Of a DNA stretch of 64,000 nt, positions 4,593 to 38,652 are shown piece by piece. The DNA comes from Thozetella sp. PMI_491 (Eukaryota > Ascomycota > Sordariomycetes > Chaetosphaeriales > Chaetosphaeriaceae), in assembly GCA_021432635.1 (NCBI GenBank), contig MU270036.1, positions 398,182 to 462,181 on the forward strand. The letters are read 5' to 3'. The position numbers and the translations under genes were made by a program. The notes under the pieces were generated by a model, which ran no database searches, had not been told where the DNA came from, and worked only from the letters and a program-made list of their open reading frames with translations. Each line of letters opens with the position of its first letter. The stretch's first letter is position 1.

Positions 4593-6426
4593 TCATGATT
4601 CGTGATAGGACTTCAAATCCACCTCATCATTCACTGACAAGACATGAAGATACGGGGTCATGTCCACGAAGGGAGCCTCAGCACCGTCTGGAACATCGCC
4701 ATTGACCTCGATATCCTGCCTCGTCCATCCGTTCCCCAGGTAGGCGAATCGGTTACCCGAGCTCGACCAATACTTGTATTCCCAGTCTTCCCACCGAGGC
4801 TCTCTCCTCACGAGGCTCGCGTGCAGCCCGCTGCCCGGCCAATTGGCGATTGGCCGCCCGCCGCTGACGCCGCCGTTGAACCACGAACGGCAGTTCTCTG
4901 TCAGGACAGTGCGGGGGAAGTAGGCCTCGGCGTAGGCCCGGAAGTCCTCGGTCGCCTGGAGTGAAGGCGCGATGGACCGGATGCCCTGGGTCTGCACCTT
5001 TCGCAGGATACGCGCCGCCAGCGAGATCTGCGTTTCCGTGCCGAACGGTAGCGTCCCTGTTGCCGTGGCTGTACCTGGTCCATTGATAAAGAGCAGGTTC
5101 GGAAAGCCTGGTGCGGCAACTCCCATATATGTGTTGGGGAATCCTATGCTCCCACCTCGCCGCCAAGCGGCTGCAAGGTCTACTCCGCCGCTAACGAGGG
5201 GGAATGGAGGGGCAAACGACTTGTCGGATCCCGTGCAGCAGATGATGGCGTCAACCTCTCTTTCCTTGCCGTCTTTGGTCTTGATGCCGGTCTTGGTGAT
5301 CCTCTCGATCGGCGTGCTGATGTATTCGACGTTTGGTTCAACCAGGGCCTCGAGATAACCAGGGCCTGGTGTCAGTCTCCGACAACTAGGAGGGAAGTCA
5401 GGCGTGATGGCCTCAAGTATGTCAATACGACTGCCCAGCCTCGTCCTCATTAACTCAGCATATTTGGCTTGTGCAGCCTTGTTCTTGTCTCCATTCTTAA
5501 TAAGCCCTCCGAATCCGGTGAAAGACATATTCTCGAGTTCTTTGCGGTACTTCATATATGCCTCCGGGTCATCGAAAGACTTCGGGAGATCCCGGAGCGC
5601 GGCGTCCCCTCCGAAGCTACCGGCAACCCAAGTTGGGCTTCGCGCGTAGTGGTCAATCCGCTTGACTATCTTCTGAAGCTCAGGCACCACTTGCATTCCT
5701 GAGGCGCCATTGCCAATGACAGCGACATTCTTACCAGCGGGCTCGAAACTAGGATCCCATCTAGAACTGTGAATCACGGAGCCGCTATAATCTGCGAACC
5801 CGGGGTAGTCTGGCAGTGTCGGGTGGCTGAAAATGCCGGTAGCCATGATGACGAAGTCCACCTCGTCAACGGTCATCTCCGTGTCATGGCGGACACTCAC
5901 AAGCCACTTCCCTTTCTCCTCGCTCCACTGGGCAGACAGGACTTCATGGTTGCATCGTATATACTTGTCGGCGTTATACTTTTTGGCGACTTTCCCCCAG
6001 TAAGCCTTAATCTCGTGGCCTCGGGCGTAGTGCTCAGTCCAGTCCAAAGAAGGCGAGAATGTGGACTGGTAGACGTGAGAGGGCACGTCACATCGGACTC
6101 CGGGATAGGTGCACTGATGCCAAATGCCCCCCTTAATCTGTATTAGAATGATTGGTTGACGTTGGTGGAAGGCAGAAACACTGTACGATATCTGAGTCCC
6201 GCTCATACACCACTAAATCCAGACCCGGGACCTTGGCTGGGAGAAGGATTGCGGCGGTGATACCCGCGATGCCGGCACCAACCACCACGACCCGGATCGT
6301 GCGAGTCTCGTCGATAGCATGATCCTCTAGTTCTAGTGGGTGCCAGACGACCGACGCGGTTGGGTCAACCTTGGACGCCGCGGCGGCGATCCGTGGTGTG
6401 AGTTGTGGTAAAGCCGCGTCTCCCAT
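4593..6426 (-). CDS. FAD-dependent Baeyer-Villiger-type monooxygenase
   Basis: Two exons, complement(6187..6426) and (4593..6137), with a 49-bp intron (GTACAG...TACAG, phase 0), give 594 aa. The intron junction joins the first Rossmann strand-helix (GAGIAG at about residues 48-53, ending ERDSDI) to the conserved KGGIWHQCTYPGVRCD block, as family alignment demands. A second nucleotide-binding motif GNGASG lies near residue 220, and the Baeyer-Villiger fingerprint (Y-x-G-x3-H-x3-W, in YSGSVIHSSRWD) lies between them at about 200. Such enzymes use NADPH, O2 and FAD to insert oxygen next to a carbonyl or to hydroxylate. No signal peptide; cytosolic. It is the left-hand gene of the putative cluster and shares its upstream region with the divergent transporter gene. 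The substrate cannot be inferred; N- or C-hydroxylation is the main alternative to true Baeyer-Villiger chemistry. Confidence 0.9.
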
Positions 6427-7513
6427 GGCTCACAGAGTGATGGCAAAGGCGTATGGCTTGACGCGGGCAGTGCGCCAGTAAACCACCTCAAGAGGGATAC
6501 TAGAGCTTAATACTTGTGCATCGAGCTGCCCGCGGGGACTGTGGCGAGATGCTAAAATGATCTCGTATCATCCCGAAGGACACCAGGGCAGCCTAAACAC
6601 GTGTTACTACTTGGATATCCTAGGATGCTCCATACTGTCACGTAACTAGTGCGAGAGGTTTCCAGCTATCTAAAATGAAAACAACCTAGGTCGCTGCTAG
6701 GAAAACGGAGTCAACGAGGGGGCAGAAGCGCTTGACCAGGAAAAGCCACTTATGCCCGGCGACATCGGTATACCGATAAACGAAACATGGGTAAGGAGGG
6801 GTTGGATGCTGGGATTCTATGGCTATGTGGGTCTAGGATAAGGACTCGAGGACTTGCATATTGCCTATGCCTCTTTCTATGCATGCGGTCGTAGGACTGA
6901 TAAGAGTCGCGGCTACACCTCCGCTACAGAAACATTGCGGAAAGCCACATATATATCTCTAAACAACCTTCTATCGTAAGTATCACTTCCGAGAAAGTTT
7001 AAAACATAGTAAAACTTTTGTGTGTATGCCACTATACTCAACGCCGAGGAGCGGCGGTGACGCAAGCCGGGTCTAGGATGATGCCATCCCTACGGTCCGG
7101 CTTGCGCCCATCGTGGCCGGGGGTTAGAAAAAGCTGATAAGGTGCCTGCCCGGATATCAATTGCCGTGAACCTGTGCATGTGGGCCGGGAATAAAACGAA
7201 ATAAATCTAGAGCCGTTGAAGCAAGCGTCCCGGCGACCTGGATTCATTCGCCAGCCTGTCAACCCTGCTAGGCACCAGACGGTGCAGAATCAAGGATGGT
7301 TGGGCGATAACGGCTCCATAAGGTGTCATCGACTAAGACCAAAGATATGTGGATATGCCAGAGCGCCGCGAATAGCTCTGCCAAGGTATGTAGTGCTATA
7401 GATATGGCCATGTCGGTTGCGACGCTGGCAGTCCGTCTCATTCGCGGAAGCTTCCAGGTAGCAGGCCGCAACGACTATTACATTCCAGAGCTCGCAGAAC
7501 GTCTCTAGGAAAT
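6427..7513. promoter_or_regulatory. divergent promoter region, monooxygenase / transporter
   Basis: A 1.09-kb head-to-head intergenic region between the leftward monooxygenase and the rightward transporter. It contains a perfect 14-bp palindrome with a CGG-N4-CCG core (separate entry). No convincing gene lies inside; the short frames around 7040-7560 have no domain and partly overlap the transporter start. Confidence 0.6.
6764..6777. promoter_or_regulatory. palindrome ATCGGTATACCGAT, candidate Zn2Cys6 site
   Basis: A perfect 14-bp palindrome seen directly in the sequence. Its core CGG-TATA-CCG is an inverted pair of CGG triplets, the arrangement bound by dimers of fungal Zn2Cys6 regulators. 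A CGG-N4-CCG palindrome also occurs in the reductase divergent promoter at 15457-15470. Binding by the cluster regulator is inferred only. Confidence 0.45.
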
Positions 7514-9753
7514 ATGTCAAAGGTTCAAGAGTCCTCGAAGGGCCCATTCGTGGCAACAGAGGCGGACAAGGCCAGTAATGCGAGCGCCGCAGGAGACGAT
7601 GGCACCGCGTCTCCAGTTGAGGGAGGCCGAGATATACCCCTCAACAAAGACGAGGACGAAGCTGCTCAGGTGCGAACATCGCCATGGTATTGTGAGAGAT
7701 GACTATTAACTTACATTGGGTGATTAGTTCTTGCGTAGCCACGACGTGGGCTCGATCGTCGCCAGTGCCACTGAAGAGGATTATTTGGCCATCGTCAAGA
7801 AAATCGACCGACGCATCATGCCACTGCTGTTCGGCACGTATGCACTACAGTGCATCGACAAGAGTTGCCTTGGATATGCAAGCGTGTTCACGTTGAGCAA
7901 AGACCTCGGCCTCGTCGTGCTGCAGTAGTAAGCATCCCAAAGAGAAGTGGCATCGGGGCTTGTCGCACACCGCAAGTCGTGGAAGCTTTTATTAACCTGG
8001 TAGCAGCTCTTGGCTCGCATCTCTATTTTACTTTGGCTACCTCGTGTTCGAGTATCCCACCACGCTTCTCTCACAGAAGTTCCCGATCGGCCGCTTCGTT
8101 GGCGTGGCCATTGTCGTGCGTCTCGAGCTATCTGCATCAGTGTCAGCTGCCGGATCTAACATGGAAAACAGGCTTGGGGTGGGATTTTAATCGCCACGGC
8201 TGGAGCCAGGAACTTCGCTGGCATGGCGGTCCTCCGTTTCCTGCTCGGCGCCATCGAATCTCTCATCACGCCTACGTTCATTCTTATCGTGCGTCATATC
8301 TACCTCGGCCACGGGACTGGTAGGGGATTTCATTGCTGACAACTTTCTCTAGAACGGCATGTACTATACTCGGAAGGAACAAGTTCTTCGAACTGGTGCT
8401 TGGGCTGCTGCTAACGGATTCGGATGTGAGTTGGCCCTCGTTTCGCACCTGTAAAACACTACTAACTATGGATCTTGCGCAGCTATGGTGGGCGGTGTCA
8501 TTGCCTATGGCATGGGCCAGGTGAACCCTGGGGTTCCAAGCTGGAAGGTAAGCTCACCGAGACGAAGATTCACGAAGAATGAAAGACTAATGGTGCCCAA
8601 ATAGTGGATCTTTATTCTCAACGGCCTTATAACCGTTCTCTGGGGTATGTTTGCTCCCGTACCGCTCAATTGGCTTGTAGTTAACAGCCAAACAGGCACA
8701 GTCGTCTACTTTTTCCTTCCTACCTCGCCCATGCGCGCAGGGTTCCTGACCGAGAAGGAACGCGTCCTAGCGATTCATCGCATCCGGACTAACAAGACCG
8801 TGAGTCTGAATCTCCCTACTTTGGAGAATATCGTTAACCGGTTCTGTGGGCATCCAGGGCATTCTTAACCGCAAGTTCAAGTGGTACCAAGTCTATGAAG
8901 CTCTCAACCCATTCAAAGATCCGCAGGGTTTGCTCCTCTTCCTCACCATTTTCTGCAATGAGGTCTTGAAGTCAGTCTCCATTCTCCCCTATACTTCATT
9001 TTCGAAATGTTCTGACCTTTGTAGCGGTGGCTTTGGGGCATTCGGGACTTTGACGATCCAGAGTTTCGGCTTCAACTCGCTCCAGTCGACCTTGATCTAC
9101 ATTCCGCAAGGGTTCATTAACATGTGTTGCATCTTCTTTGGAGGATGGCTCGCGCAGAGACTTCCGAATGCGCGTATCTACGTCTCGATTGGCATGCTTG
9201 TCCCGACCTTCATCGGCTTATTGCTGCAGATCGTGCTGCCCCGGAGTAATGTGGCGGGACTGCTAATTGGAGGTAAGCGTCTTTATATCTCTGCATTGGT
9301 CACATTGCCAACGTTAATCGGCTGGCGTAGTGTACATGTTTCCACCCTTCGCAACCTCCCTTTTTATCTGCCTATCCCTCCCTGGAGTAAACAGCTCAGG
9401 CTATACGAAGCGCATCACGTTGTCGTCCTACGGATTCCTCGGATACGCTTTGGGCAACATTGTTGGCCCTTTCATGGTCAAGACTGGCGAGGTGCCTGCC
9501 TATCGGTCTGTTTTTATTGCCGATATAATATGCATTGTTCTCCAGGGCATTTTCCTTGTGCTCTTGCGTATATATTATGTCCGGGAGAACAGGCGCCGCG
9601 ACAGACTGCTCGCGGAAGGCGAAGTTCAGGACGCCCCGAAGGATGAGTTCGCAGACAAGACAGACCTGGAGACCCCCGGCTTCCGCTATGTGGTGAGTTA
9701 CTACTCGTTAGAGACAGCGTGCATAGGTTACTAACGTGCTTACCTAGCTGTAA
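7514..9753 (+). CDS. MFS transporter, anion:cation symporter (Dal5/allantoate-like) family
   Basis: I can build twelve exons that stay in frame: 7514-7669, 7728-7927, 8007-8115, 8172-8288, 8353-8425, 8483-8547, 8605-8644, 8696-8799, 8858-8970, 9025-9272, 9331-9692 and 9748-9753, giving 530 aa. The introns are 50-80 bp with GT/AG ends. The N-terminal tail (about 75 aa) is acidic and cytoplasmic. About 12 hydrophobic segments follow, with family blocks such as DRRIMPLL...CIDKSCLGYAS, YPTTLLSQKFPIGRF, GAIESLITPTF, MYYTRKEQVLRTG and PSWKWIF, typical of fungal ACS permeases (allantoate, nicotinate, pantothenate type). In the cluster context it could export the product or import a precursor. The many introns are normal for this family. 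The final 6-bp coding exon (Leu-stop) is the least certain part. Confidence 0.88.
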
Positions 9754-10015
9754 CTGGAGAGTGAGTTAGAGAGGTCGGAGGCGGTAGCATCACGTTGCGT
9801 ATAGCGTAGGAAGTTGGTGTCCTTCGGATTGGTTCAAAATCTTAGATTCGTTTCGCTTATAGAGCATATTTGATACCTATTTCGATACTCGCGAATCCCT
9901 ACCAACCAATCTAAACTTTGACCAGCCCGTTTAATTGCCCAATACCTTATTTACCCAAATTGTACACAAAGTCGCGGGTCATTGTGCTAGATCGCCGCAC
10001 ATGGTGGATTATCCC

Positions 10016-11023
10016 CTAAAAGATGGCCACTCCGTTCGGGGGGCTGGCCACGCCCCCAGGTACTCGCAAGGGCATGCTGCTGAAGAAGAAGGACCACCGC
10101 TTCCGCTTCGCGCACTGTAGGCTCAGCTCCTCCAGGTCGAATAGTTCTCCGATCGGCATACCCCAGCCAGCAAGCACCCACTCGTGCAGCATATACTGGG
10201 GATCTTGGCAAGGCCATGCCTCGAAGCTTGGCTGATCGCCCGCCGCTGCAGCAAACCCTTCATCCCAGAGCCAGCGTAGCGTCGCCTCAGAGGACTCCAG
10301 GCCGATGGCCGGAGGGTTCTTCATGTCGGAAAGCTCCTGGCACCGCGCGGCGGGCAGCTTCCTGTACTCGCGGACCCAGCCGGTGTGGACGAAGAGAATG
10401 TCTCCTTGCCGGGGCGTCACGCCCTGGCTGGCGGCGATTTCTTTCAGCTCGGCCACGGTAATCGGCGTCGTCTTGAAGGGGTCTACAATGCGTCCCTTCG
10501 CCTCGGCCCAGGCCGCATAGTCGAGAAGGATCCCGCGGCCGACAATACCTCCTTTCTTGACCCACGCTACAAGCTGATTAGCGAAGTCGGACCGGAAATA
10601 AGCCATCGAATAGCCCATACCTTGAATCCCGTTGATGCTGCTATTTAGAATGCCATCTAGCGTCTGCCCGTTGAACCACATCTTCTCCTTCTGATAAGCG
10701 TAGTGGCGAAAGCCATCCCATTGCGAGCTGCACTGCGTGTTGAACACAAGCGTGTCGTCATTGACGCTGCGCGGCGCCTTGTTCTTAATTTTTTGCTCGA
10801 AAGGCAGCCGCCCGAAACAGGGGAGGGCCATGCTATTCAAGTCCCAGTCTGTCGAGACTCGCACTCCGTCGACGATCTCCCGCGCGGCCGCGGCAGTAGC
10901 CTCTGGGGTGAGTAGGTTGAGCATTCCGCATTCATCGTCGGCGCCGAACAGGCCCCAGGCGTTGCCAGGCGGCCCGTCCTTTCGGAGCGGGAGCTCGTCA
11001 AGAGATGGCTTGGTATTAGGCAT
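10016..11023 (-). CDS. cyclase/kynurenine-formamidase-like hydrolase (PF04199 type)
   Basis: A single exon of 335 aa starting at the Met of MPNTKPSLDELPLR; an upstream in-frame ATG at 11065 would add 14 residues but lacks homology-like sequence. The N-terminal WGLFGADDECGMLNLLTPE block and the SSQWDGFRH motif (about residue 100) identify the fungal branch of the metal-dependent cyclase family. The bacterial metal motif HxGTHxDxPxH is altered: the Asp and last His are kept, but the preceding His residues are Gln or Ser, as in many fungal members. Possible roles are amide, ester or lactone hydrolysis or cyclisation. No signal peptide is visible. It is divergent from the Zn2Cys6 regulator across 465 bp, supporting co-regulation within the cluster. 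Confidence 0.85.
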   Translation of the reverse strand: MPNTKPSLDELPLRKDGPPGNAWGLFGADDECGMLNLLTPEATAAAAREIVDGVRVSTDWDLNSMALPCFGRLPFEQKIKNKAPRSVNDDTLVFNTQCSSQWDGFRHYAYQKEKMWFNGQTLDGILNSSINGIQGMGYSMAYFRSDFANQLVAWVKKGGIVGRGILLDYAAWAEAKGRIVDPFKTTPITVAELKEIAASQGVTPRQGDILFVHTGWVREYRKLPAARCQELSDMKNPPAIGLESSEATLRWLWDEGFAAAAGDQPSFEAWPCQDPQYMLHEWVLAGWGMPIGELFDLEELSLQCAKRKRWSFFFSSMPLRVPGGVASPPNGVAIF

Positions 11024-11488
11024 TGCGTATAGCAGTTGGGATGAGAACAAACTCTCTGGTACCACTCGAATTCCGGTTCTCTATGTTTGTCTCTGTAGGC
11101 GAAATGGGTCGAATAGACGCTGATAGCTAGGAGTACCCCGCGCCATAAGCTAGCTACCTGTAAGCTCATAGCCTCGTCTCCCAGCTCCAAAACTCCGTAG
11201 GTGCTGGCTGACTCGCATAGCTACTGTGCCGTGTGGCGCCAAGCCCCTTACGAATAATTGGGACCTAGCCTCACTTCTCCGTCGTGGGGTGAGTTACTTG
11301 TCCGCATTTCCGGAACCCCACTAGAGCAGGTGGGACGAAGAGCCCCGTGCCCATTAACCTCGGGTGAGTTCCGACAGAAAAGGTACAGCGGCACTCTCTT
11401 CCGCCCATCCTCTCCTCGGTACACCTTCTTCTCCGTTGGAGACGCTCCCATCCGCGACGGATCCTTCTCTCAGCGCTCGGCAGATCCT
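11024..11488. promoter_or_regulatory. divergent promoter, cyclase-like gene / regulator
   Basis: A 465-bp shared upstream region. It contains the 8-bp palindrome TTCCGGAA at 11308-11315, whose CCGGAA core recurs in the reductase promoter element at 15457-15470. An in-frame extension of the regulator upstream of its ATG (from 11258) is possible but looks like 5' leader. Confidence 0.5.
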
Positions 11489-14093
11489 ATGGAGCCAGTT
11501 TTGTCCCCGAGCGTGTCCACCCCGTCTCGCGGCTCCGATGGTGTGCCATCTCCGTCCACGGAAGCCGAGACGCGGAAACGTCCCTCAGTGAGCGAGGACG
11601 GGCTGGAGTCGAGGCGCAAGATCCAGCGGGTCAGCCGCGCCTGCGACGCCTGCAAGGCCCGGAAGGCGAGATGTACCGGCACGAACCCGTGCACGGCCTG
11701 TGTCGGTCGCGGTGTCGCATGCGAGTATCTGACGAGATACGGCCGCGGGAGGCCACCGACGCCGACGCCGGCCCCGGGGCTGCTGGCGCCTCCCGGTCCG
11801 AGCCCGAGGACCGCCACGGCATTTCCGTCCGGGTCACCGACGGCAGAAAACGGCGGTACGTGGACTCCTATGCCGTACATCTTGCTGTTCTGTTTCGTGC
11901 GATTGCATGTGTACCACGTAGCTTTTTGCATTATCGTCTGCTTGTCTCGTCACGTCGCGCCACCGTGCCTTTGTGCGAAGTAATGGTATGGGCACCTACT
12001 GACGTGAGTCAGTAACGCCAGCATATTCCACGACGCGCAATGACCACTACGCAGCTCCGGCGATCCCTCAACCCGTGTCACGAGCCTCCCCCGAGGTCGG
12101 GATGACGGACGTCCAGGGCCAGTATTGTGACCCGACCTCCGGCCTAGCTTTCCTTCATCGCGCGTGGAATCGACTTTCTAGCCAGAACCTCAGAGATGTC
12201 CAGTTAGACGATAGCACCAATGCAGCAGCAGCGCATCAACCACAAGTAGCTGCCGGTGACAAGCCATTCCATGTTGCGCCAGAGAGCACTTACGACATAC
12301 CGGTGCCAAATGGTGAGGTCGCGGCAGACCTCCTAGCTTTCTATTTCGACGTCTGTATTGCCACCTACCGATTCTTACATCGCCAGACGGTCGAGCAGTG
12401 GTTAGAAAGGCTCCTTCTCAACATACAACAAGGCGCTCCCGTGTACCACACAATCGGAGAGACGCGCGCTTCGATCGTCCTTTCCGCTCTAGCCATCGCC
12501 ATCTACCACCGCGGGCAGTCAAAGCGCGGGACATCTCCGAACGAAGAGGCCGAGGCCACTCGGCGAAGCGATCAGCTCTTCTCTAGCGCGTTGCGAATGA
12601 CGGACCTCGCCACGGGGTATCCAAACTTTGAGTCGGCGCAAGCAAAGCTGATCCAAGTGCTCTATCTTCTCCACACGTCCCGTATGAACCAGGCGTGGTA
12701 TGTATTCGGCAATGCACTCCAGATTATCAGCGCGCTAGGCCTCCACCGCCACGATGGTCGTACGAGAACAGTCAAACTGAAGGCTCCCCCGGACTATATC
12801 AAGCTACAGTGCCAGAAGCGGACGTTTTGGGTTGCATACATCTTGGATCAATACATTGGGGTTATACTTGGCCGGCCGAGGCACTACCATGACGAGGACA
12901 TCGACCAAGTCTTTCCAGACTGCGTGGACGATGAGGACATGACGCCGGAAGGACCCAAGCCGGTATCCAAAAATAAGGATTGCTCCTTAGCATCTCTCGT
13001 ATACCATGCAAGGTAACATTTCTTCTCGCGGCGCGTAGTGCCCCACTAACCCGTATCAGAATCAGCAGGATTGTCAGCACTATCTCTCGCGAGACCTACA
13101 CCATCCATCAGTTGCCTCGCCAGGCGCTTGCCGCCTCCACCCAGCGGATAACCCAGGAGTTAGCGAACTGGAAGGCCTCGCTGCCGCCCCTGCTCGGGTT
13201 AATCAGTCCATCGAGCTTGGTTGCGCCGTTTCGACGACAAGCGACCGCTCTCAGGCTTGCACACTCACACGCCGTCATGCACGCGAACCGCCCGTTTCTG
13301 CTGCGAAATATCGGTGCTCGCCATGATCCTCATGTCTGTACAGAGCAGATAGACGCCTGCATCCAGGCTGCTCGCGAGGCATTAGAGATAGTCGACGGGA
13401 TTGCGAGCGATGGGACCCTGTTCCATGCCTTCTGGTGGACACACTACGTGACCTTTTGCGCCCTCGCCATCGTCTACATATGGGAGATCCAGCAGGTCCT
13501 GCCGAGTCCGAATACAGCCCAGGACCGTGATCAAAGGCAGCTCTTCGAGCTGGCAGAGCGATGCCAGACGCATCTAGCCGAAGCGACAGCGACGAACTCG
13601 CCGAGCAGGCGGTACAGTATTATTCTGCAGGAGCTGCGGGACGAGGCAAAGCAACGCACAGCCGGCGTCGCGCTCCATGCCCTGTCCACCGGGCCTGTTG
13701 GCAACGGGTCTAATGGGGCAGGCTTCGAGCTAGAGTCTGTGTATGCCACGCAGGGAACTGGCCTGCAAGGGAACATGACACCTCATTTTGCAGGCCAAGA
13801 CATGGCAAACGGTATACAGCACTTCTGGGATAGTTGGCAGGCGACAGACTGGCTCGATATGGACTCTTTGGTAAGTTATCCTTGTATACCAAGTACTATA
13901 TCGTTCATCCTTAAAGCCTCGGGCCCTTGTTATTTACACCCTTCATGTGGTCTCAAGTTCCCATGATTGCATGCCCAAAACATTAGGCATCAGGATATGT
14001 GGTCAGCAGCAGCTAATATTGTTCTACTAGGCATTTGGCCATGCTCCCACCTTCGAATCGCCACCCGGTCAATGGCTTGACGTGACGAGATGA
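11489..14093 (+). CDS. Zn2Cys6 transcription factor, probable cluster regulator
   Basis: Four exons (11489-11855, 12013-13012, 13060-13870, 14031-14093) give 746 aa. Introns are 157, 47 and 160 bp; each junction keeps frame and has a CTRAC-like branch site. A Ser/Pro-rich N-terminus is followed by a basic segment and the binuclear zinc cluster, Cys-x2-Cys-x6-Cys-x5-Cys-x2-Cys-x6-Cys (CDACKARKARC...CTACVGRGVAC) at about residues 51-77. A fungal-specific transcription factor middle-homology region follows (ESTYDIPVPNGEVAADLLAF onward, with ASIVLSALAIAIYHRG and NQAWYVFGNALQIISALGLH). The C-terminus is short and contains DWLDMDSL, an acidic-hydrophobic stretch that could be an activation motif. 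It is nuclear and binds CGG-type sites. Its location in the middle of the biosynthetic genes makes it the probable pathway-specific regulator. Confidence 0.92.
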
Positions 14094-14168
14094 ACCAGTC
14101 TAATGCTTAATTTCCATGTATCACTTGTTTTTATATATACCCCATTATCCATTACGCATTGCCAGGCG

Positions 14169-15266
14169 TTAGACGGTGAACTTCTTTAGATTCTCGGGCC
14201 CGGCCTCCCTTGCTATTCGCGTCACTTCCTCCTGCCCGAGCTCCTCGAAGATGTCGAAGCCCCAGTGGGCGCAGCCATTGAAGCGCTTATGCCTCTCCAA
14301 AGCATTCAGTTTCTCAAACACCTCGCTGGGGATCTCCTTCACCTGCAGGTTGCTCTCGATTCGGGATGGGGTGACGCTCTTGGGGAGCACAACGGTTCCG
14401 CGCTGGAGGCCCCACGAGTACAGGAGCTGGCCGGCATCGACGCCCAGCCCCTTCGCCAGGTCCTGGACCACGGGATCATCCACCACCTTGGGCAGGCCGA
14501 CCTGGTTGTTACCGAGGGGCGAGTATGCTTGAACGAGGATGTTCTTTGAGCTGCAGAACTCCAGCAACTGGGGCTGCTGGAGGTACGGGTGTGCTTCAAT
14601 CTGGTTCACGGCGGGGATGACTGTAGTCTTGGAGAGGAGATCGGCCAGCCGGCGCTCATTGAAATTGCATACACCAATGGCGCGCACCTTTCCGGTGGAG
14701 AGGAGAGCCTCCATGGCTTTGTACGTAACTGCGGGATCGATGTCGGCTAGTTCAAAGACACCATCGTCGTCGAGGGGGAACCACTTCTCGCTAGACTTAA
14801 AAGCGCTTTCAAGAGTGTTAGCTCTCATTCAATTCCGTTGTGCGTTCTCCCGACCAAGCTAAGCCCGGAACGAGCAGTGCAATTCAGGTGAACAGATAGC
14901 AATGAACAATCGATTCGAAAGGAGCGCTTACCAAGGCCAATGCATCAAATACAAGTCGACATAAGTCGTTCCTAGGTCGTTCAGGGTCTTGTCGAGAGCG
15001 CTCTCCACGTCCTTGGGGTCATGCTTCGTGTTCCAGAGCTTGCCGGTGATGAAGATGTCTTCGCGCGGGACGCCGCTCGCCTTGATGCCGGCGCCGACCT
15101 CCGCCTCGTTCCTGTAGATGGCTGCACCGTCAATATGCTTGTACCCCGCCTTCAGGGCAATCTCCACGGCACGCTCGACTTCGTGGGGCTTCGCCTGCCA
15201 GGTCCCGAAGCCGACCGCGGGGATCGTAGCCCCGGTGTTGAGAGTAAAGCTCGTGGGCAGAGGCAT
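14169..15266 (-). CDS. aldo/keto reductase
   Basis: Two exons, complement(14932..15266) and (14169..14805), with a 126-bp intron (GTAAGC...CTTGAAAG), give 323 aa, the usual size. Splicing restores the [14 protein letters not shown] junction. The catalytic tetrad is present: Asp in HIDGAAIY, Tyr in AAIYRNE, Lys in FITGKLWN and His in LMHWP. The NADPH-binding VLPKS...R...N block is near residue 255. The protein is a (beta/alpha)8 barrel that reduces aldehydes or ketones with NADPH, cytosolic. It is divergent from the A-T-R reductase across a 440-bp promoter, so an obvious role is to reduce the aldehyde released by that enzyme or a ketone intermediate. The usual Thr after the catalytic Asp is Gly here, a modest change. 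Confidence 0.93.
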
Positions 15267-15706
15267 CGTTATCAGTGTGTAATCAGCTTGTGGAAGTGAT
15301 TGAACAAGAAAAATTTGCTGTCCGCGCGACTTGTAAACAAAGTAAAGAAAGAGCAGGTTTTACCTTTTCCACAGCTATGCTTCAAGAGCATCCACTTCAA
15401 GTCAGCACCCCGCCATTGGTGCTGTGGTTTTCCGGTCGGATGTCTTCCGATCGCTGTCCGGAAAACCGGATGTCCCCGCGATCGCGCTCCAATGCCCCGA
15501 AACATCTGCTTGGAAGGCAAACAAGTGCTCAGGTGCCAGTCGGATAAATTTCTCGAAAATTCGCCGAGCTAGATGGTAGTCACAAAATGTAGTTACGACA
15601 CTGCCGATCTACAATACACCGTATAATAACTTGATTAGGCGCTGTTGATGACGTTTCCACAGAGCAGCGCGGTGCTTCCGTCCCTTCGTCAAACCTATCT
15701 AGCAAA
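15267..15706. promoter_or_regulatory. divergent promoter, aldo/keto reductase / A-T-R reductase
   Basis: A 440-bp bidirectional promoter. It contains an inverted repeat block at 15426-15470 and a TATAATAA stretch at about 15622, roughly 80 bp before the reductase ATG. The dense CGG-triplet region at 15430-15485 stands out from the flanking sequence. Confidence 0.6.
15426..15470. promoter_or_regulatory. nested inverted repeats with CGG-N4-CCG palindrome
   Basis: GGTTTTCCGG at 15426-15435 and its exact reverse complement CCGGAAAACC at 15458-15467 form a 10-bp inverted repeat with a 22-bp spacer. The right arm also sits in the palindromic arrangement TCCGG-AAAA-CCGGA at 15457-15470, which has a CGG-N4-CCG core. 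A further TCCGGTCGGA lies at 15431. This pattern suits a Zn2Cys6 dimer. The protein-DNA assignment is inferred. Confidence 0.5.
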
Positions 15707-18700
15707 ATGGTTCCGCCGACGCTGATTTTGAGCTCGAGCGAGGCGGCTCTTCCCAAAGAGCCACTGGCCACGGTTACGCACGCCGGAATCCCGAACACCT
15801 CGGATGCCACGCCGGAGGAGCACATTCAGACAATTGACGGACTGCTGCGGCACAGAGCCCGAACTTGTCCGGACAGTATTATCGTGTCATACCCTTCCGA
15901 GGGGATCAAATACGTGGATTACACGGCGAGGCAGCTCGATGTCTTTGCGTATAGGGTCGCGCGGCAGTACCAGAGCGTGCTGCCGTCGCGATCATCCTCG
16001 GCCGAGCAGCCGTTAGTGGTGGGGTTGCTGGGGCCGTCCAACTTCGAATACACCATCACGATGCTGGGACTGATCAAGCTCGGACACACGATCTTATTTC
16101 TGTCGACAAGGATCTCGGAAGAGGCGATCGACTCCCTGATGCAGACAACAGGAGCGAAATTTCTGATCGCGGACCCACGATATCTTCAGACGGCCGACAA
16201 AGTGAAAGAAAGATCTGGGATTCAGGTTCTCCCGATTGCGTCCAAGTCGAGCTTTGAGTTTGAGGTGGACGGGCTAGGAGACACGAGACTAGATTCCGCG
16301 CTTGACCCTAGCGTAGAGACGGCAAACACCGTCTACATCATCCACTCGAGTGGTGTGTATCCTTCCGTTTTACCACTATGTTCGAGCTAAGTTCTCACGC
16401 ATCACAGGTTCCACCGGGCTACCTAAGCCGATCTTTCAGAGACAGAATGCAGCGATCGCCAACTACGCTATTAATATGGAGATGAAGGCATTCATCACAT
16501 TGCCCCTCTTCCACAACCACGGCATCTGCAACTTCTTCCGCGCGATCTATGCCGTAAAATCGATCCATTTATACAACGCCGACCTGCCGCTTACTTCTGA
16601 CTACCTGACCCGGATCTTTCAAGAACACGAGTTCGAGATTTTCTATGGTGTCCCATACGCGCTTAAGCTGCTTGCAGAGACCGATGTTGGTATCGAATTG
16701 CTACGCAGCCTAAAAGTTGTTATGTACGGCGGCTCGGCGTGTCCCGACGAGCTTGGGGACCTCCTGGTTAGCCGAGGCGTCAATTTGGTCAGCCACTATG
16801 GCGCGACCGAGGTCGGGCAGCTCATGACTTCGTTCCGCGGGCCAGGAGATCGGTACTGGAACTACGTCCGCGAGACCGATAAACTCGCACCCTACCTGCG
16901 GTGGATACCGCGTGGACCGAACCTGTTCGAGTGCGCCGTGACCGAGGGTTGGCAGTCCAAAGTTGCTACGAATCAGCCCGACGGATCTTACAATACTAAG
17001 GACCTATTCGAGCCACATCCAACCATCCCGGGCGCGTGGAAGTACATAGCCCGGCTAGACGACACCATCGTGCTAGTCAACGGCGAAAAGTTCAATCCCG
17101 TACAGATGGAGGGCGCGGTGCGGTCCAACCCGCTCGTAGCTGAGACGGTGGTTTTTGGTGCAGGCAGACCGTCATTAGGGCTGTTGGTGGTACCATCCCC
17201 ATCTACCGAGGGTCTCTCTAACGACGAGATTGTTGACGCGCTCTGGCCAACCGTTGAGGTTGCGAATCGATCTGTCGAGGCCTATGCCAAAGTCTCCAAG
17301 GGCATGATCACGCTCCTCCCTCAGGAGTGTCAATACCCGCGGACGGACAAGGGGAGCATCATCCGGCAGGCGTTCTACAAGAACTTTGCAAAGGAGATCG
17401 ACGCGACATATGATAGAGCAGATTCCGCTTCGGACGATGTCCGGGTCATGGAGGTCGAGGAGCTCAAGACGTTCCTGAGGGCGGCGTTATCACGTGTGCT
17501 CGGCAGCGACATTCCGGCCGACGATACGGCCGACTTCTTTTCTTTTGGCGTGGATTCATTGCAGGCCATCCAGATGCGGAGTGAGATCCTCAAGAATGTT
17601 GATGTCGCCGGCCACAAGTTGGGCCACAACGTCGTGTTTGATTACCCCTCTGTTCAAAGGCTAACAACATACTTGGCTGCGCTCAGGGACGGAGGGGAAG
17701 GACAGCAGGTTTCGGTGGAAACCGAGATGCAGAACTTGATTGACCGGCATTCGCGAACCTTGGCTTGGGGGCCGCAGCGAAAAATGAGAACATCCGTGGT
17801 AAGTTGGGCATCCTTTTCTCCAGGAACCGCCTCCTGCTAATAATCACGCAGGCTGTCACTGGGGCCACCGGCTCGCTTGGGGCACATGTAGTGGCTCAAC
17901 TCGCGTCGGACCCGACCATTAGCAGGATATACTGCCTTGTGCGGGCAAAGGACACCGAATCGGCTTTCCGACGTGTGCAAGACTCTCTCGAGCAACGCAA
18001 ACTTTATAGTACACTGCCACTGGCGCACCTTGCCAAAATATCGGCTCTGTCCTTCCAACAAGCGCAACCCCAGCTTGGCTTAGACAACACTACCTACCAA
18101 ACCATTGCGCAGGACCTGCGCGCAGTGATCCATTGCGCGTGGGCCGTCAATTTCAATATGGCCCTCTCCTCTTTCGAAGAGTGCATTACTGGTGTAACTC
18201 GCCTAGTCCAGCTCTGCCGCTTTGCCCCAGACGCCACAGCCACGCTTGCGTTCTGCAGCTCTGTCAGCACCGTGGCGCGCTACATCCCACCCGCATCGGA
18301 TCCCTCGGCCCCGGTCCCAGAGCGGCTGCCAGAGCTCTCTTGGGCCCAGGGGATGGGCTACGCCCAGTCCAAGAACGTTGCCGAGCACTTGGTACTGCAG
18401 GCCGGTATGTGGGGGGCGGTGCCTACGCGGGTCCTGCGCATCGGCCAGATCGTAGGCGACACGCAGCACGGGGTCTGGAACGTGACGGAGGCGATCCCTT
18501 TAATGATGCAGACGGCACAGACAGTCGGGGCCTTACCGACCCTGCCGGAGGAGATGGCTTGGCTCCCGGTAGACACGGTCGCGCGCGCCGTCGTCGACAT
18601 CACTTTCGCCGACGCTGACGGCGACACGGCAGTCGTCGCCAACGTGGTCAACCCCCAGACTTTCAACTGGACCCGAGACCTGCTCCCGGCGCTTCGGGCA

Positions 18701-18979
18701 GCCGGGCTCCGGTTCGACGAGGTGGCGCCAAAGGAGTGGATCCGCCGGCTCCGTGATTCGGACCAGGACCCGACCAGAAACCCACCGATCAAGCTTGTAG
18801 ATTTCTTTGCGTCCAAGTACGATCGTGAGGATGAAGGATTTGGGACTACCAAAAGCTACGCGACCTCGGTTTCAACCCACCTGTCTGCGGCACTGGGGCA
18901 CGCACCCACGCTGGACCAGGATCTAGTCAACAAGTTCGTCCAATACTTTGTGCGCGATGGCTGGGCGGCTGGTCCGTGA
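15707..18979 (+). CDS. NRPS-like carboxylic acid reductase (A-T-R)
   Basis: Three exons (15707-16352, 16408-17798, 17852-18979), with introns of 55 and 53 bp, give 1054 aa. The adenylation domain (about 30-560) has HSSGSTGLPK (restored exactly by splicing), SHYGATEVGQL, YNTKDLF in place of the usual YxTGDL, and the catalytic-lysine region PRTDKGSIIR. The thiolation domain carries the phosphopantetheine Ser599 in FGVDSLQ. The reductase domain starts at about 680 with VTGATGSLG (NADPH binding) and has the SDR Tyr849-x3-Lys853 pair (YAQSK). There is no condensation domain. The enzyme activates a carboxylic acid with ATP, holds it as a thioester and releases it as aldehyde (or alcohol) with NADPH. 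Fungal relatives act on aryl, alkyl or amino acids; which applies here is unknown. It is the backbone enzyme of the proposed cluster. Confidence 0.95.
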
Positions 18980-19404
18980 GACAACCCATTCCATCGCCTG
19001 TGTTACACGAGGTGCAGACGCGGACTATCGATATCTAAACGCCATGTCTAGACTTCGTACAGTCGTAAATAATTGTTCCTTCTCAAGCCGGGTCTCCCGT
19101 GTAGTGCGGCTGAGGGGACAAAAGGGCATTGCAATGTTTCCCCGCGCTTATCGCTTTTGGACAGTCGCCAGGCTGTCCTCCCATTTCTACCCCACGTCGA
19201 AAGTAGTATAAATACCTATACCTGCTGGGCTTGGCAAGGGCATGGGAATACTGGGGGATCAGCTGCGGGAGACCACTGGATCCTACCTACCAAACCTCTT
19301 ATATATAGTCGTTAGCCATTGAATAAGATCGATAGTCTTTTCGTGGTCTTCTCGTGGTCTTTTCGTGGTCCATTCTAGAAAGAAACACCGAAGAAACTTT
19401 CATC
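18980..19404 (+). promoter_or_regulatory. promoter of GST gene
   Basis: The region between the reductase stop and the GST ATG. It contains a TATATATA-like stretch at about 19299-19307 and a 3x11-bp tandem repeat at 19338-19370, with no gene inside. Confidence 0.6.
19338..19370 (+). repeat. tandem repeat, 3 x 11 bp (TTTTCGTGGTC)
   Basis: Three head-to-tail copies of TTTTCGTGGTC, the middle one with a single T-to-C change, lie between the TATA-like stretch and the ATG of the GST gene, so in or next to the 5' leader. They could be operator repeats or a recent slippage expansion. Confidence 0.85.
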
Positions 19405-20140
19405 ATGGCTCCCTTTGGCACTCTGTATACGCTGAAAGGCCGTATCCACCCCCGGACGCGAAAGGTGACGGCATCCCTCCCGGGCTGACATGCATCTGAA
19501 TGGCTGGCTGACAGACCTTCTTCCCCAGATCTTCGCGGTCGCCAGGATCAACGGCCTGGAGCTGACGCTCCCGATGTTCATCCCCTTCAAGTCCAACAAG
19601 ACACCCGGGTACCTCGCCAAGTTCCCGACCGGCAAGTTCCCCGCGCTGGAGACGGCGACGGGCTTCTGCGTCAGCGAGTCCAACGCGGTCGCCTACTACG
19701 TCGCCGAGGCCGGGCCGAACAAGGACCAGCTCCTGGGCGCGACGCCCGAGGAGCGCGCACTCGTGCAGTTCTGGATCTTTTACTCGGAGCTTCAGCTCGA
19801 GCCGGCGCTGTGGAAGGTGGCCGTGTGGCGCCGCGGCATGGTGCCGTTCGACGCCAGGAGCGAGACCGAGGGCGCGGCAGCGCTGCCGAAGCTGCTGGAT
19901 CACGTCGAGGCCAGCCTCCGGGGCAAGAAATGGCTCGTCAGCGACGCGACCGGGCCGAGCCTCGCCGACCTGACCATCTCGGCCGTCATTTTCTTCGGCT
20001 ACCTGACTTTCATCGACGCTGAGATGCGGGCTCAGTACCCGGAGACTTTGCGTTGGGTTGGACAGGTCATGGCCATGCCGGAGCTGAAAGGGCTCTACGA
20101 TGACGAGTTTATAGAGAAGAGGCTGGACCCTCCGGTGTAG
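19405..20140 (+). CDS. glutathione S-transferase, eEF1Bgamma-like
   Basis: Two exons (19405-19464, 19529-20140), with a 64-bp intron, give 223 aa. The first exon supplies FGTLYTLKGRIHPRTRK, joining exactly to IFAVARINGLELTLP. This is the N-terminal thioredoxin-fold pattern of elongation-factor-1B-gamma-like GSTs. The KFPTGKFPALE and ESNAVAYYVAE blocks form the glutathione site, and the C-terminal helical domain contains GKKWLVSDATGPSLADLTI. Fungal enzymes of this type are often found in metabolite clusters, where they add glutathione to electrophiles, isomerise double bonds or protect the producer. The protein is cytosolic, with no EF1G C-terminal domain, so it is not the translation factor itself. 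It is the right-hand gene of the proposed cluster. Confidence 0.92.
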
Positions 20141-34464: not shown

Positions 34465-37040
34465 TCACCACTGCAGTGATTTTTCGGCTGGCTCGTCGTC
34501 CAGCTTCCCTGGGACAGCACCAGCGGCCTCTTTACGGCCAGTCACAGCCTCCAGAACCCCTTTGCCCCACCGATGGAAAGCATTGCTCATGCCCCCGGTC
34601 TTAACCAGCTGCCACTCTAGGTCGCTTAGCTGGAATTCGAATTCCTGCCCGGCAACCACCACCGCGCGCCGCTCAATGTCAATCTCGATCGGCTCCCCGT
34701 CCTTGGCGAGCTCGTAAAACTTCTCGTCCGAGATGACGAAGCCAAGAAGCCCCAGGTTCGGCTGGTTGCGGCCGTAAATGAACGCGAAGGATCTGGCGAT
34801 TACCGCCTGCACGCCAGCCCCTTGGAGAGCGGTGACGGCACTCTCGCGCGAACTCCCCACCCCAAACGCCAGACCCGCGACGACGATGTTGAGGCCGTCC
34901 TTGACTCGTTGCCGAAATTCGGGGTGGCTGTACTTGAGACAGAACGTCCCCAACTCCTCCGGGGTGGTGTGGGCACCGAGGGCCTCGGCTGGCGCAAGAG
35001 CATCGGTGTCGATGAAATCTCCCAGAGTCTGAACCCTGCCGCATATAGTGGCCGATGCAGCGTTTGTTTCGAATGCGGGGCTATTCGTGTGGCCATCTGG
35101 CTCCTGAGTACTTGGGCCGCTTGTCGGCGTGGGTTCAAAACCAGGATGCACATACGGCACTTCAACAGCGGCGGTCGTTTTTGTCCCGAGGATTTCCTCG
35201 AGTTTCTGCATGTCGATCTCCTCAAGTAACTCTTTGGGGTCGGTTATCACCATACCGAAACTGCTCGCTGCAACGGTGACTGCGGAGGAGATGCTCCCTA
35301 TGGCGCCTAGTCCACGTCAGTATAGAACGAATGGGAACAAATAAGAAAACAAGAAGCACACCTGGGCCCATTCTGTTCTTGAAGTTGCGATTCTGGCTGC
35401 TTAGCCACACCTCTCCTTCCCCGGCCTTGTCTGCCGCCATGCCCACGCAATAGCTGCACCCGGGAACTCCAATCTCAAAGCCAGCTTCTTCGTATATATC
35501 TGCCAGCCCTCTTGCTCTAAGATCATGCATGATGGGTCGCGATCCGGGGACAACTTTACGCTTGCCATGCGCGACAGGCTTAAATCCTTTTTTAAGACCA
35601 GCTTCGAGAACCAGGGCGGCGAGAACGAGGTCTTCTCGGACTGTAGTGCAAGCACCAATAAAGCAGCCATCCAGCTTTGTGCCAGCAACCACCTCCACGG
35701 GGACAACGTCGTCCGGGCTGGGATATCGGGCAACAAAGGACTCTACTTTTGCGAGGTCGATGATACAAGTTTCGGCATATTGAGCATCCTCATCGGGTTG
35801 ATAGTAAGTGGCAAGTCTCTTGTATTTTGGGTGCTTGCGGCGGTTTATAAAGTGGTGTGTGACTTCATCGGGGACGAATATGCCGGTGACACCACCAAAT
35901 TCCTGGCAGAGTCAGAGAATGCCCTGGACAAACGTATCAAGTGAACTCACAGTTGTCATGTTTGAAATGGCAAACCGAGCATCGCAAGACAGATATTTTA
36001 ATCCTGGGCCGGTATACTCGACCACACGATCTGCCGCCACGGTATTACGCTTGAGCTCCTTCAGCACGTATAATATCACGTCCTTGCCGCCCAGACCCGG
36101 CTTTGGTTGGTTGACAAAGCGAATCTCGACCGTTTCGGGGATTTTGAACCACGTCTGCCCGAGGACGAGGGGCATGGTGACGTCTGCCACACCCATCCCA
36201 ATAGCGAGGGCAGAAACAGATCCGGCCGAACATGTGTGCGAGTCGGAGCCAATGATCAGCATGCCGGGCTGCGCCCGCTCGCGACAGAACTCCGTGTGCA
36301 TAATCGTGTAGTTCATGCCCTGATATTCGGTCAATTTGAACACCTGTCTGGCCTTTTCGCTTGCCTCGATCAAAGGCTTAACCTTGGGATGGTCTTTGAT
36401 CCTGGGATCTACGACGTGGTCGCCAGCGATCCAGATTCTGTCGTTTCGAAAAACACCGGGCTTCCCGAGGCCATCGTACGTAGCTGCCATGGCCGACCAC
36501 GACAGCTCTGAGGCAATGACCCAGTCCACATCAACGCGGATGACGTCTCCAGGCTTGACCTCTCCTTTCCTCTCGACATCATGCGCGGCGAAGATTTTCT
36601 CAGCCAGTGTCATCGGTCTTCTACCCTGCGGACGCCATGATAGCGCTGCTGTCGGACGCTCGTACCGATCAACTGAGTTCAAGGCTTCGAGATAAGCCGA
36701 TGCGAGGAAGAGAACCTCCGCTACGTCGTCTTGGCCAAGATTTTGATCGTATTGCAGGCCAAGTCCTCCGAAGTCCGGGGGGTTTAAACACTGCGTAAGG
36801 AGGTCGCGGAGAGCGTCGGCTTCTCTAGAGCGCTGATTTCGATCCAGGGATTTCGAAATCGCAAGGACCTGCTCTAGAATATTGAGCTCCGAGTTTGAGA
36901 TTGCTTTGCAAGTCAGTGTCCAATTCCACATCTAAGCCCGGCACGATAGTATACGAACACCCATGTTGCTCCACAGGGAGCTCTATTTGGCGATAATCTT
37001 TAAGAACTTGCAACAACTGTGTGGTATATGTGCCTGACAT
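34465..37040 (-). CDS. fused LeuC-LeuD aconitase-family hydro-lyase
   Basis: The main exons are complement(35951..about 36903, 35362..35902, 34465..35306), plus a first exon from 37040 whose junction is uncertain (best in-frame choice 36959..37040 with a GTTCGT donor, total 805 aa). Introns at 35903-35950 and 35307-35361 are clear. The LeuC-like part begins near [12 protein letters not shown]; the [4Fe-4S] cysteines are in FIGACTT and PGCSYCVGM, and SDSHTCSAG is conserved. The LeuD-like swivel domain ([24 protein letters not shown]) is fused at the C-terminus, as in fungal isopropylmalate isomerase or homoaconitase. An N-terminal extension of about 130 aa precedes the catalytic domain and matches nothing I recognise. 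It probably catalyses a hydratase or isomerase reaction on an alkyl-malate, maleate or citrate substrate. It is divergent from an isocitrate-lyase-family gene. Confidence 0.88.
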
Positions 37041-38541: not shown

Positions 38542-38652
38542 GTCTTTGGAGTAATTGATACTGCTCAAGGCTCCCTGCATTGCTCAAAGGGAGTAAAGTG
38601 GTAGCATCAAATAGAGGTTGGTATTGTACATTCTCTCGACAGTCAACCGAAT

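Follow-up and report, generated by a model that had tools for sequence, protein, structure and literature searches.

Gene content and layout of the locus

The window, by which we mean the whole 64,000-nucleotide stretch of Thozetella sp. PMI_491 DNA that was analysed, carries seven genes in a row between positions 4593 and 20140 (Table 1). The order of all seven was confirmed from the open reading frames of the window and from spliced models whose splice sites were picked by eye from the sequence alone; the 19 introns are all of the GT-AG type and no model contains an internal stop. The positions of the seven adjacent genes in the initial annotation match these models, and its family names were confirmed by Pfam for all seven proteins, the transporter subfamily apart, with matches to FMO-like, MFS_1, Cyclase, Zn_clus plus Fungal_trans, Aldo_ket_red, AMP-binding plus PP-binding plus NAD_binding_4, and GST_N plus GST_C. 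The 1054 amino acids given earlier for the carboxylic acid reductase (CAR) agree exactly with the spliced model, and the description of the glutathione S-transferase (GST) as eEF1Bgamma-like holds, its best PDB match being elongation factor 1-gamma. For the Baeyer-Villiger-type monooxygenase (BVMO) the first coordinate was correct, yet the 537-aa reading frame lacked the first exon, which carries the first FAD motif. The "ACS-family transporter" is an MFS protein, and its placement in the ACS family is tentative, with a single PDB match to VGLUT2. A scan of four of the proteins against NCBIfam met no family cut-off (for the A-T piece, among the best 25 of 50 rows).

Table 1. Positions of the seven genes and the three divergent intergenic regions in the window
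Feature	Position	Strand	Best matches or sequence elements
Type I Baeyer-Villiger-type flavin monooxygenase (BVMO), 594 aa, 2 exons	4593..6426 (exons 6187-6426, 4593-6137)	-	FMO-like E 2.9e-15; phenylacetone monooxygenase 1w4x E 1.1e-47
Intergenic BVMO/MFS, 1087 bp	6427..7513		perfect 10-bp inverted repeat CGCAAGCCGG-N26-CCGGCTTGCG at 7061-7106
MFS transporter, 531 aa, 12 exons, weakly SLC17/anion:cation-symporter-like	7514..9753	+	MFS_1 E 1.6e-33; VGLUT2 E 1.7e-4
PF04199 cyclase-family hydrolase-type protein, 335 aa, 1 exon	10016..11023	-	Cyclase E 4.8e-13; PDB 5ibz E 2.2e-23
Intergenic cyclase/regulator, 465 bp	11024..11488		one TTTCCGGA near 11307
Zn2Cys6 regulator (TF), 732 aa, 4 exons	11489..14093	+	Zn_clus E 2.7e-7; Fungal_trans E 1.2e-28
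Aldo/keto reductase (AKR), 323 aa, 2 exons, closest solved relatives aldehyde reductases	14169..15266	-	Aldo_ket_red E 2.9e-45; aldehyde reductase 2alr E 2e-77
Intergenic AKR/CAR, 440 bp	15267..15706		perfect inverted repeat GGTTTTCCGG-N22-CCGGAAAACC at 15426-15467, core TTTTCCGG
A-T-R carboxylic acid reductase (CAR), 1054 aa, 3 exons, catalytic residues kept	15707..18979	+	AMP-binding, AMP-binding_C_3, PP-binding, NAD_binding_4; PDB 8aep reductase domain E 9e-37
Glutathione S-transferase, elongation-factor-1-gamma type, 223 aa, 2 exons	19405..20140	+	GST_N, GST_C; EF1-gamma 5dqs E 1.4e-23

As stated in the initial annotation, neither a PKS nor a condensation domain was recognised by Pfam among the seven proteins, and the same holds for prenyltransferase domains. 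The window listings contain no open frame of PKS size, the longest single frame being 789 aa, with the proviso that a gene split into short exons would escape and that the other frames of the window were domain-scanned in part. We accordingly rejected a CAR of the clade VI kind that is linked to a non-reducing PKS.

Motifs in the encoded proteins

Type I BVMOs are characterised by the fingerprints [AG]GxWxxxx[FY]P[GM]xxxD and FxGxxxHxxxW[PD]. The former is matched at residue 83 of the BVMO (GGIWHQCTYPGVRCD), and at residue 197 (YSGSVIHSSRWD) every fixed position of the latter is kept except the first, where F is replaced by Y. Two GxGxxG dinucleotide-binding motifs are also present, GAGIAG at residue 50 and GNGASG at residue 222.

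The CAR unites the A, T and R domains in this order in one protein (AMP-binding 48-372, AMP-binding_C_3 433-553, PP-binding 572-638, NAD_binding_4 681-926; Pfam). Its residues H251, E350, E442, S599, Y849 and K853 take the places of H237, E337, E433, S595, Y844 and K848 of NcCAR, as mapped by motif and spacing rather than from the NcCAR A-domain sequence. Replacement of these NcCAR residues abolished activity in vitro, with some activity of E337A retained in vivo, according to the available portion of the report (PMC5826065). Judged by its motifs, the protein is an intact A-T-R enzyme. The regulator contains both the C-x2-C-x6-C...C-x2-C-x6-8-C motif and the fungal-specific transcription factor domain.

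The cyclase-family protein scored 50 bits against the Pfam profile, for which the gathering score is 23.1, and has the signature QCSSQWDGFRH at residue 97; the pattern [QH]WDxxxH is found at 13 of 18 other loci. Formyl hydrolases such as kynurenine formamidase occur among PF04199 proteins, and the metal motif of the KynB type is HxGTHxDxxxH. This motif was not found in the window protein, which has QCSSQWDGFRH in its place, and an identity as kynurenine formamidase was therefore rejected. An AlphaFold prediction from two input sequences had a mean pLDDT of 34.5. A literature search on the family by accession gave a single paper. We consider the protein a putative ester or lactone hydrolase.

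Divergent promoters

Three head-to-head pairs with common promoters had been proposed. The pairs are real, with the start-codon gaps listed in Table 1, of which the gap of 1087 bp is long for one common promoter. An element common to the three divergent pairs was rejected, since no 8-mer is shared by all of them, and no CGG/CCG pair at one spacing (0-14) was found in at least three of four promoters. The core TTTTCCGG occurs in two copies in the AKR/CAR promoter, and contig C25 has two copies in its MFS-AKR interval. It was not found in the region examined on C87, and the C12 region, although it holds the closest paralogue of the regulator, has a single copy that lies inside an NmrA-type frame. 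A role for TTTTCCGG as the regulator site for the whole family was rejected on these grounds.

Recurrence of gene pairs in the same genome

The 72-Mb genome contains partial paralogous clusters with the gene contents cyclase-MFS-MFS-AKR-CAR, CAR-TF-AKR, and CAR with TF, DMATS prenyltransferase and vanillyl-alcohol oxidase. On contig C25 the cyclase, two MFS genes, AKR and CAR lie within about 12 kb, and the cyclase there shares an identical FNTQCSSQWDGFRHY stretch with that of the window. On contig C12 the closest paralogue of the regulator among the best 11 regulator places used, of 58 rows (61% identity over 679 positions), lies next to a CAR gene and to genes for a DMATS prenyltransferase (Trp_DMAT E 1.8e-100) and for a vanillyl-alcohol oxidase (1w1k E 7.5e-141).

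To quantify the recurrence of pairs, exon-level rows were grouped into genes by hand, leaving out the window locus, and the counts were compared with 2000 uniform random placements over 72.3 Mb. Of the 19 other cyclase loci, 4 have a BVMO within 10 kb, two of these four being neighbours on C1, versus a random mean of 0.295 (reached in 2/2000 placements). For the CAR, an AKR lay within 10 kb at 2/10 loci (random mean 0.069; reached in 7/2000) and a TF likewise at 2/10 (0.036; reached in 0/2000). An unexpected pair, MFS-BVMO, was also high (3/72 versus 0.98). The test was post hoc, made after the pairs had been noticed and with 15 family pairs tried. Accessory genes cluster in any case, so that uniform placement exaggerates the significance. 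The ten CAR-type loci comprise C25, C87, C12, C88 and C40 with flanks, and C26, C22 near 86 kb, C80, C11 and C92 from tables, some of them partial or distant; 17 weaker CAR-like places were kept out of this count. The MFS set consisted of 72 grouped places from 81 scored of 460 candidates, and the GST entered the 10-kb neighbour count but not the random placements.

No BVMO or GST homologue was found within 10 kb of the other CAR-type loci (0/10), and neither a BVMO nor a GST match exceeded 45 bits in the regions examined on C25, C87 and C12. The CAR and AKR paralogues group alike, C25 being nearest to C87 with the window outside, as if the pair had stayed linked through old duplications. The histories of the TF and CAR disagree, as the C12 copies are 61% and 43% identical to those of the window, respectively. 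A recent segmental duplication was rejected as the source of the paralogous clusters, since five other CARs are only 38-45% identical to the window CAR.

Relatives on other contigs and plasmids

The contig search for relatives of the cyclase yielded four loci, one of which is fungal DNA within a bacterial-labelled assembly. A second fungal contig has MFS, BVMO, Zn2Cys6 and cyclase genes in about 10 kb, and no CAR was found in the 21 kb around this set. With four families recurring there and sub-sets of the same families recurring within the genome, the seven genes appear to be neighbours by more than chance.

For bacteria we sampled the plasmid neighbourhoods of cyclase relatives in 14 out of 149 records (H1-H15 except H4), of which four stretches were unannotated. 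CoA-type or aromatic breakdown genes are present in 9 of the 10 annotated neighbourhoods, an uncontrolled fraction. At L059, one of these nine, the aromatic genes come no closer to the cyclase than about 8-9 kb. A BVMO-like match was seen in 2/14 neighbourhoods, one of them weak. On a Mycobacterium branderi plasmid a BVMO homologue is located between two cyclases, together with an alpha/beta hydrolase gene. Relatives of the BVMO on plasmids amounted to 246 records.

A tentative ketone-to-alcohol cascade

Since both couples recur, we suggest that the window joins a BVMO and cyclase-type hydrolase couple to a CAR and aldehyde reductase couple. The locus may be one co-regulated fungal small-molecule cluster for a ketone-to-alcohol cascade, to which we assign a probability of about 0.45. 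The observations behind this model are the gene content, the integrity of the genes, the catalytic motifs and the recurrence of the couples. The BVMO would put an oxygen next to a ketone to give an ester or lactone, which the PF04199 hydrolase would cut, with the freed carboxylic acid either on one of the fragments or at one end. The A-T-R enzyme would then activate the acid with ATP, hold it on the phosphopantetheine arm and reduce it with NADPH to an aldehyde, which the AKR would turn into an alcohol. The MFS protein could transport the acid or the ketone through the membrane, the GST might trap or isomerise a reactive intermediate, and the Zn2Cys6 protein would turn on the set. The order ketone, ester or lactone, acid, aldehyde, alcohol is the likeliest one; the co-regulation of all seven genes and the part played by the GST are presumed, and an aromatic or cyclic ketone as substrate is a guess. 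We slightly favour a role in degrading or detoxifying an aromatic-type compound rather than a biosynthetic one.

The opposite emphasis, a specialised-metabolite cluster, is a serious though unlikely alternative, in which an acid from elsewhere (shikimate-derived or from another locus) would be reduced by the CAR and AKR, tailored by the BVMO, cyclase and GST, and the product exported by the MFS protein. The DMATS prenyltransferase and vanillyl-alcohol oxidase beside the CAR and closest TF paralogue on C12 favour specialised metabolism, as do the many metabolite pathways that employ fungal CARs (PMC9605436, in part) and vibralactone, which is built by a CAR, an aldehyde reductase and a flavin ring-expanding enzyme (PMC10257657, in part). 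Against it stand the breakdown-type genes of the bacterial cyclase neighbourhoods, which favour breakdown, the absence of PKS, condensation and prenyltransferase domains from the seven proteins and of a PKS-sized single frame from the window listings, and the recurrence of the BVMO-cyclase couple with no counted CAR nearby. The label "specialised-metabolite", as opposed to breakdown, is tentative. The "reductive release" of the initial annotation is loose wording, as no assembly line was recognised.

With no BVMO or GST homologue near the ten other CAR-type loci, two independent adjoining units also have to be considered, a BVMO-MFS-cyclase(-TF) module for breakdown and an AKR-CAR-GST module for aldehydes and alcohols. 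The C25, C87 and C12 regions, the second fungal contig and the lack of a common 8-mer agree with such a division, but C25 already combines a cyclase carrying the exact FNTQCSSQWDGFRHY and MFS genes with an AKR and a CAR, and the closest paralogue of the junction TF, among the best 11 places of 58 rows, adjoins a CAR; we find it somewhat less probable still. The reactions could even run in reverse order, the CAR producing an aryl aldehyde, which the type I BVMO would turn into a formate ester; its formyl group would be removed by a QxSSQWDxxxH-type PF04199 hydrolase, so that a carboxyl is swapped for a hydroxyl. All three enzymes are present and the family includes formyl hydrolases, but the kynurenine-formamidase motif is missing from the cyclase, the ten other CAR-type loci lack a BVMO homologue within 10 kb and the AKR would draw on the same aldehyde; we consider this order quite improbable. 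If true, fungi would have a way of trimming benzoic-type acids that is driven by ATP and NADPH, as an alternative to oxidative decarboxylases.

Comparison with known systems and significance

A search of the literature, mostly without full text, found no description of the seven-gene set, in agreement with the initial annotation, in which no named pathway was recognised for it. The vibralactone pathway of Boreostereum vibrans (BvCAR, BvARs, VibO) resembles the window in that a CAR gives an aldehyde, an aldehyde reductase an alcohol, with oxygen introduced by a flavin monooxygenase. It differs in that VibO is of group A and type O-like rather than a type I BVMO, and in its UbiA prenyltransferases, and no PF04199 cyclase was found in the available portion of that account (PMC10257657). 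Clade VI CAR clusters, such as that of pnlA in Pestalotiopsis fici, share with the window a three-exon A-T-R CAR gene and a cluster TF gene, but have a non-reducing PKS partner, none being recognised in the window (PMC9605436, in part). The 3-hydroxyanthranilate breakdown cluster of aspergilli has a syntenic BVMO, aryl-CoA ligase and SDR, and so likewise places a BVMO-motif monooxygenase near an AMP-forming enzyme, but no CAR or GST was found in the accessible part of its description, and the word cyclase does not occur in the text (PMC7842363). The inducible nicotinate (hxn) breakdown cluster of Aspergillus nidulans is similar in gene types, having MFS transporters, a hydrolase that opens the ring and a single pathway regulator. 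The ring is opened there by HxnM, however, a cyclic imidase whose relative is a deacetylase-like protein, and neither CAR nor BVMO was found in the portion of the source at hand (PMC9304392).

Fungal genomes contain many A-T-R enzymes with no assigned substrate, and of the seven published clades of fungal CARs two had no known member at the time of the survey (PMC9605436, in part). At this locus one such CAR is tied to two recurrent elements, an AKR partner and a BVMO-cyclase couple, and this offers a small, testable set of reactions. If the proposed cascade is correct, it would represent a fungal enzymatic ketone-to-alcohol route for chain shortening or ring opening, of use in biocatalysis, and would give a first lead on what this cyclase family, which has about 20 loci in the genome, does.

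Gene models and catalytic motifs

We modelled the exon structure of all seven genes, with splice sites picked by eye, and searched the whole source genome (72.3 Mb in 157 contigs; the window is C22:398182-462181) with each of the seven proteins. None of the models has an internal stop, and their 19 introns, 47-199 bp long, all follow the GT-AG rule. This richness in introns, together with the Zn2Cys6 regulator, marks the source as a fungus. The initial annotation had proposed a specialised-metabolite cluster of seven neighbouring genes with three head-to-head pairs; all seven could be modelled, each family name is backed by Pfam, and the divergent gaps measure 1087, 465 and 440 bp. The first exon of the Baeyer-Villiger-type monooxygenase (BVMO) bears the first FAD motif and is absent from its longest open frame.

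The carboxylic acid reductase (CAR) has the A, T and R domains in that order by Pfam, as first described, and the best solved relative of its reductase domain is 8aep (E 9e-37), which we take to be the N. crassa enzyme. By motif spacing, H251, E350, E442, S599, Y849 and K853 occupy the places of H237, E337, E433, S595, Y844 and K848 in NcCAR, the replacement of which is reported to abolish in vitro activity (PMC5826065). One type I fingerprint in the BVMO is exact and a second has Tyr replacing the first Phe; among solved structures the enzyme is closest to phenylacetone and steroid monooxygenases. The aldo/keto reductase (AKR) is nearest to aldehyde reductases (2alr, E 2e-77) and the GST to elongation factor 1-gamma (5dqs), in agreement with its annotation as eEF1Bgamma-like. 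The MFS protein had a single solved relative, VGLUT2, as a weak match; it has a close paralogue on contig C2 (72-87% by exon), and none of the paralogues detected for the other six genes matches as closely. The cyclase matched PF04199 and one uncharacterised structure, 5ibz. The kynurenine formamidase motif is missing from this protein and QCSSQWDGFRH stands in its stead; a similar pattern, [QH]WDxxxH, is present in 13 of the 18 other cyclase loci scanned.

Features of the window and of related loci in the same genome
Feature	Position	Strand	Detail
Open frame left of cluster	1832-4201		789 aa; no Pfam match at E 0.001
Cluster	4593-20140		BVMO(-), MFS(+), cyclase(-), Zn2Cys6(+), AKR(-), CAR(+), GST(+)
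BVMO first exon	6187-6426	-
Inverted repeat, BVMO/MFS promoter	7061-7106		CGCAAGCCGG-N26-CCGGCTTGCG; perfect, 10 bp
Inverted repeat, AKR/CAR promoter	15426-15467		GGTTTTCCGG-N22-CCGGAAAACC; perfect, 10 bp
Aconitase_C protein	34465-35253	-
Aconitase protein	35912-36931	-
PEP-mutase/isocitrate-lyase-family protein	37813-38541	+
Aldehyde dehydrogenase	41929-43413	-
MFS paralogue	C2:1735776-1737421
C25 set	inside ~12 kb		cyclase(-), MFS(-), MFS(-), AKR(+), CAR(+)
C87 set	inside 9 kb		CAR(-), regulator(-), AKR(-)
C12 set (stretches L034, L035)	11.4-25.5 kb		CAR(+), regulator(-), then NmrA-type gene, DMATS-type prenyltransferase, vanillyl-alcohol oxidase

The window also holds a second metabolic-looking gene group (34465-43413), which may represent a methylcitrate- or dimethylmalate-like route.

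Paralogous loci and gene pairs

Flanks were examined for five other CAR loci and the nearest GST paralogue. Recognisable partners were present at three of the five, on contigs C25, C87 and C12. The prenyltransferase on C12 matched Trp_DMAT with E 1.8e-100. With its five genes side by side, the C12 neighbourhood is itself a candidate cluster for a prenylated-aromatic metabolite. No second cluster member scored above 45 bits (tblastn) in the CAR regions of C88 and C40 or the GST region of C10; a transporter-like frame, judged by eye and with no Pfam match, follows the C88 CAR.

To quantify the pairing, we counted places within 10 kb of each other, leaving out the window locus, against uniform random placement in the genome (2000 draws). 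Since the pairs were known from the tables before the test and 15 family pairs were tried, the figures are descriptive: CAR and regulator were paired at 2/10 loci (mean 0.036; reached in 0 draws), CAR and AKR at 2/10 (0.069; 7 draws), and cyclase and BVMO at 4/19 (0.295; 2 draws), namely two neighbouring loci on C1 and one each on C7 and C72. CAR-cyclase and CAR-MFS pairs each occurred at 1/10 loci (reached in 105 and 429 draws), and no pairs were found for CAR-BVMO (0/10), CAR-GST (0/10), AKR-BVMO (0/20), cyclase-regulator (0/19) or, at the best 11 regulator places, regulator-MFS and regulator-BVMO (0/11 each). The unexpected MFS-BVMO pair was also somewhat high (3/72 against 0.98; 161 draws; MFS places from the 81 of 460 candidates that were scored), indicating that general clustering of accessory genes inflates the counts.

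Paralogue identities were taken from stitched tblastn pieces rather than curated models. On this basis the C25 and C87 CARs form a group (54.7%) with the window CAR outside it (44.6% and 44.4%), and the AKRs follow the same pattern (60.1% versus 57.2% and 51.6%), consistent with a CAR-AKR pair whose linkage is old. The C12 regulator is the closest paralogue of the window regulator (61%), while the CARs of these two loci are 43% identical and the C12 CAR groups with that of C88. As the regulator grouping departs from the CAR grouping, the cluster has apparently undergone reshuffling, with regulator and enzymes of partly separate histories.

Two divergent promoters in the cluster contain inverted repeats. 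Such repeats are not rare: with 10-bp arms and a spacer of up to 40, four occur across the 64-kb window, including one within the regulator gene. The core TTTTCCGG occurs on C25 twice between the MFS and AKR genes and once upstream of the second MFS gene, and the exact 10-mer GCTTTTCCGG three times in 50 kb of C25 (0.12 expected), a recurrence that serves as a lead rather than a test because the search started from the window's own repeat. GCTTTTCCGG was also found once in C88 and once in the window, far from clusters. TTTTCCGG was absent from the C87 region and, in the C12 region, confined to the NmrA-type frame. The three divergent promoters of the window have no 8-mer in common.

A possible ketone-to-alcohol cascade

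Two couples recur, BVMO with a PF04199 protein and CAR with an aldehyde reductase. The simplest chain using both most likely runs from ketone to ester or lactone, acid, aldehyde and alcohol. The BVMO would oxidise a presumed ketone substrate to an ester or lactone, which the PF04199 protein, in an inferred hydrolase role, would open to the acid; were the couples joined in this order, CAR would then form the aldehyde and AKR the alcohol. The MFS protein would serve transport and the GST may deal with a reactive intermediate.

Such a cascade could serve breakdown or detoxification, or else biosynthesis, and the two readings are almost equally well supported. The paralogous C12 locus speaks for biosynthesis. 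Slightly more weight falls on breakdown or detoxification; breakdown is favoured by a second fungal contig and the bacterial neighbourhoods of cyclase relatives. A cyclase scan of genome contigs from other assemblies gave four loci, one of which, L049 (NYXK01000081.1), has MFS, BVMO (34% over 560 aa), Zn2Cys6 and cyclase genes in about 10 kb; the other three lacked a BVMO match. L049 is filed as Deltaproteobacteria and looks plainly fungal: its Zn2Cys6 gene has a fungal-specific domain and its cyclase is split into several exon-like pieces. The assembly therefore appears to be either mixed or wrongly labelled. CAR matches in that assembly were weak (best 36.9 bits), with none in the 21 kb around L049. 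Among 149 plasmid records with a cyclase relative, 14 stretches were examined; of the 10 annotated, 9 carried CoA-type or aromatic breakdown genes and 1 a sugar-type set, counts that come with no control stretches. On one plasmid (L054) two cyclases flank a BVMO homologue (27% over 508 aa) and on another (L061) a weak flavin-monooxygenase match (22.6%) adjoins the cyclase; the other 12 of the 14 had no BVMO match.

Published systems share parts of the set. The vibralactone pathway is described with a CAR, aldehyde reductases and a type O-like flavin enzyme (PMC10257657), a fungal breakdown cluster with a syntenic BVMO (PMC7842363), and the nicotinate cluster with MFS transporters and a ring-opening hydrolase (PMC9304392), which belongs to another family than the cyclase here. 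A bacterial BVMO yields testosterone acetate, the subsequent hydrolase being then not known according to that account (PMC12239570). One survey links clade VI CARs to NR-PKSs and states that no CAR was then known from clades IV and VII (PMC9605436); a further paper excludes unclustered A-T-R enzymes from its BGC counts, their role being unclear (PMC8403587). The enzyme kinds are known, and their seven-family combination was not described in titles or abstract openings of the open-access papers that our searches turned up, which, given that scope, is weak evidence of novelty.

Overall, the cluster is real, intact and probably functional, and its proposed function is plausible. Hand-grouped matches place 19 further PF04199 cyclase and 46 further BVMO-like places in the genome, which suggests that this fungus has a broad capacity to degrade ring ketones or aromatics.
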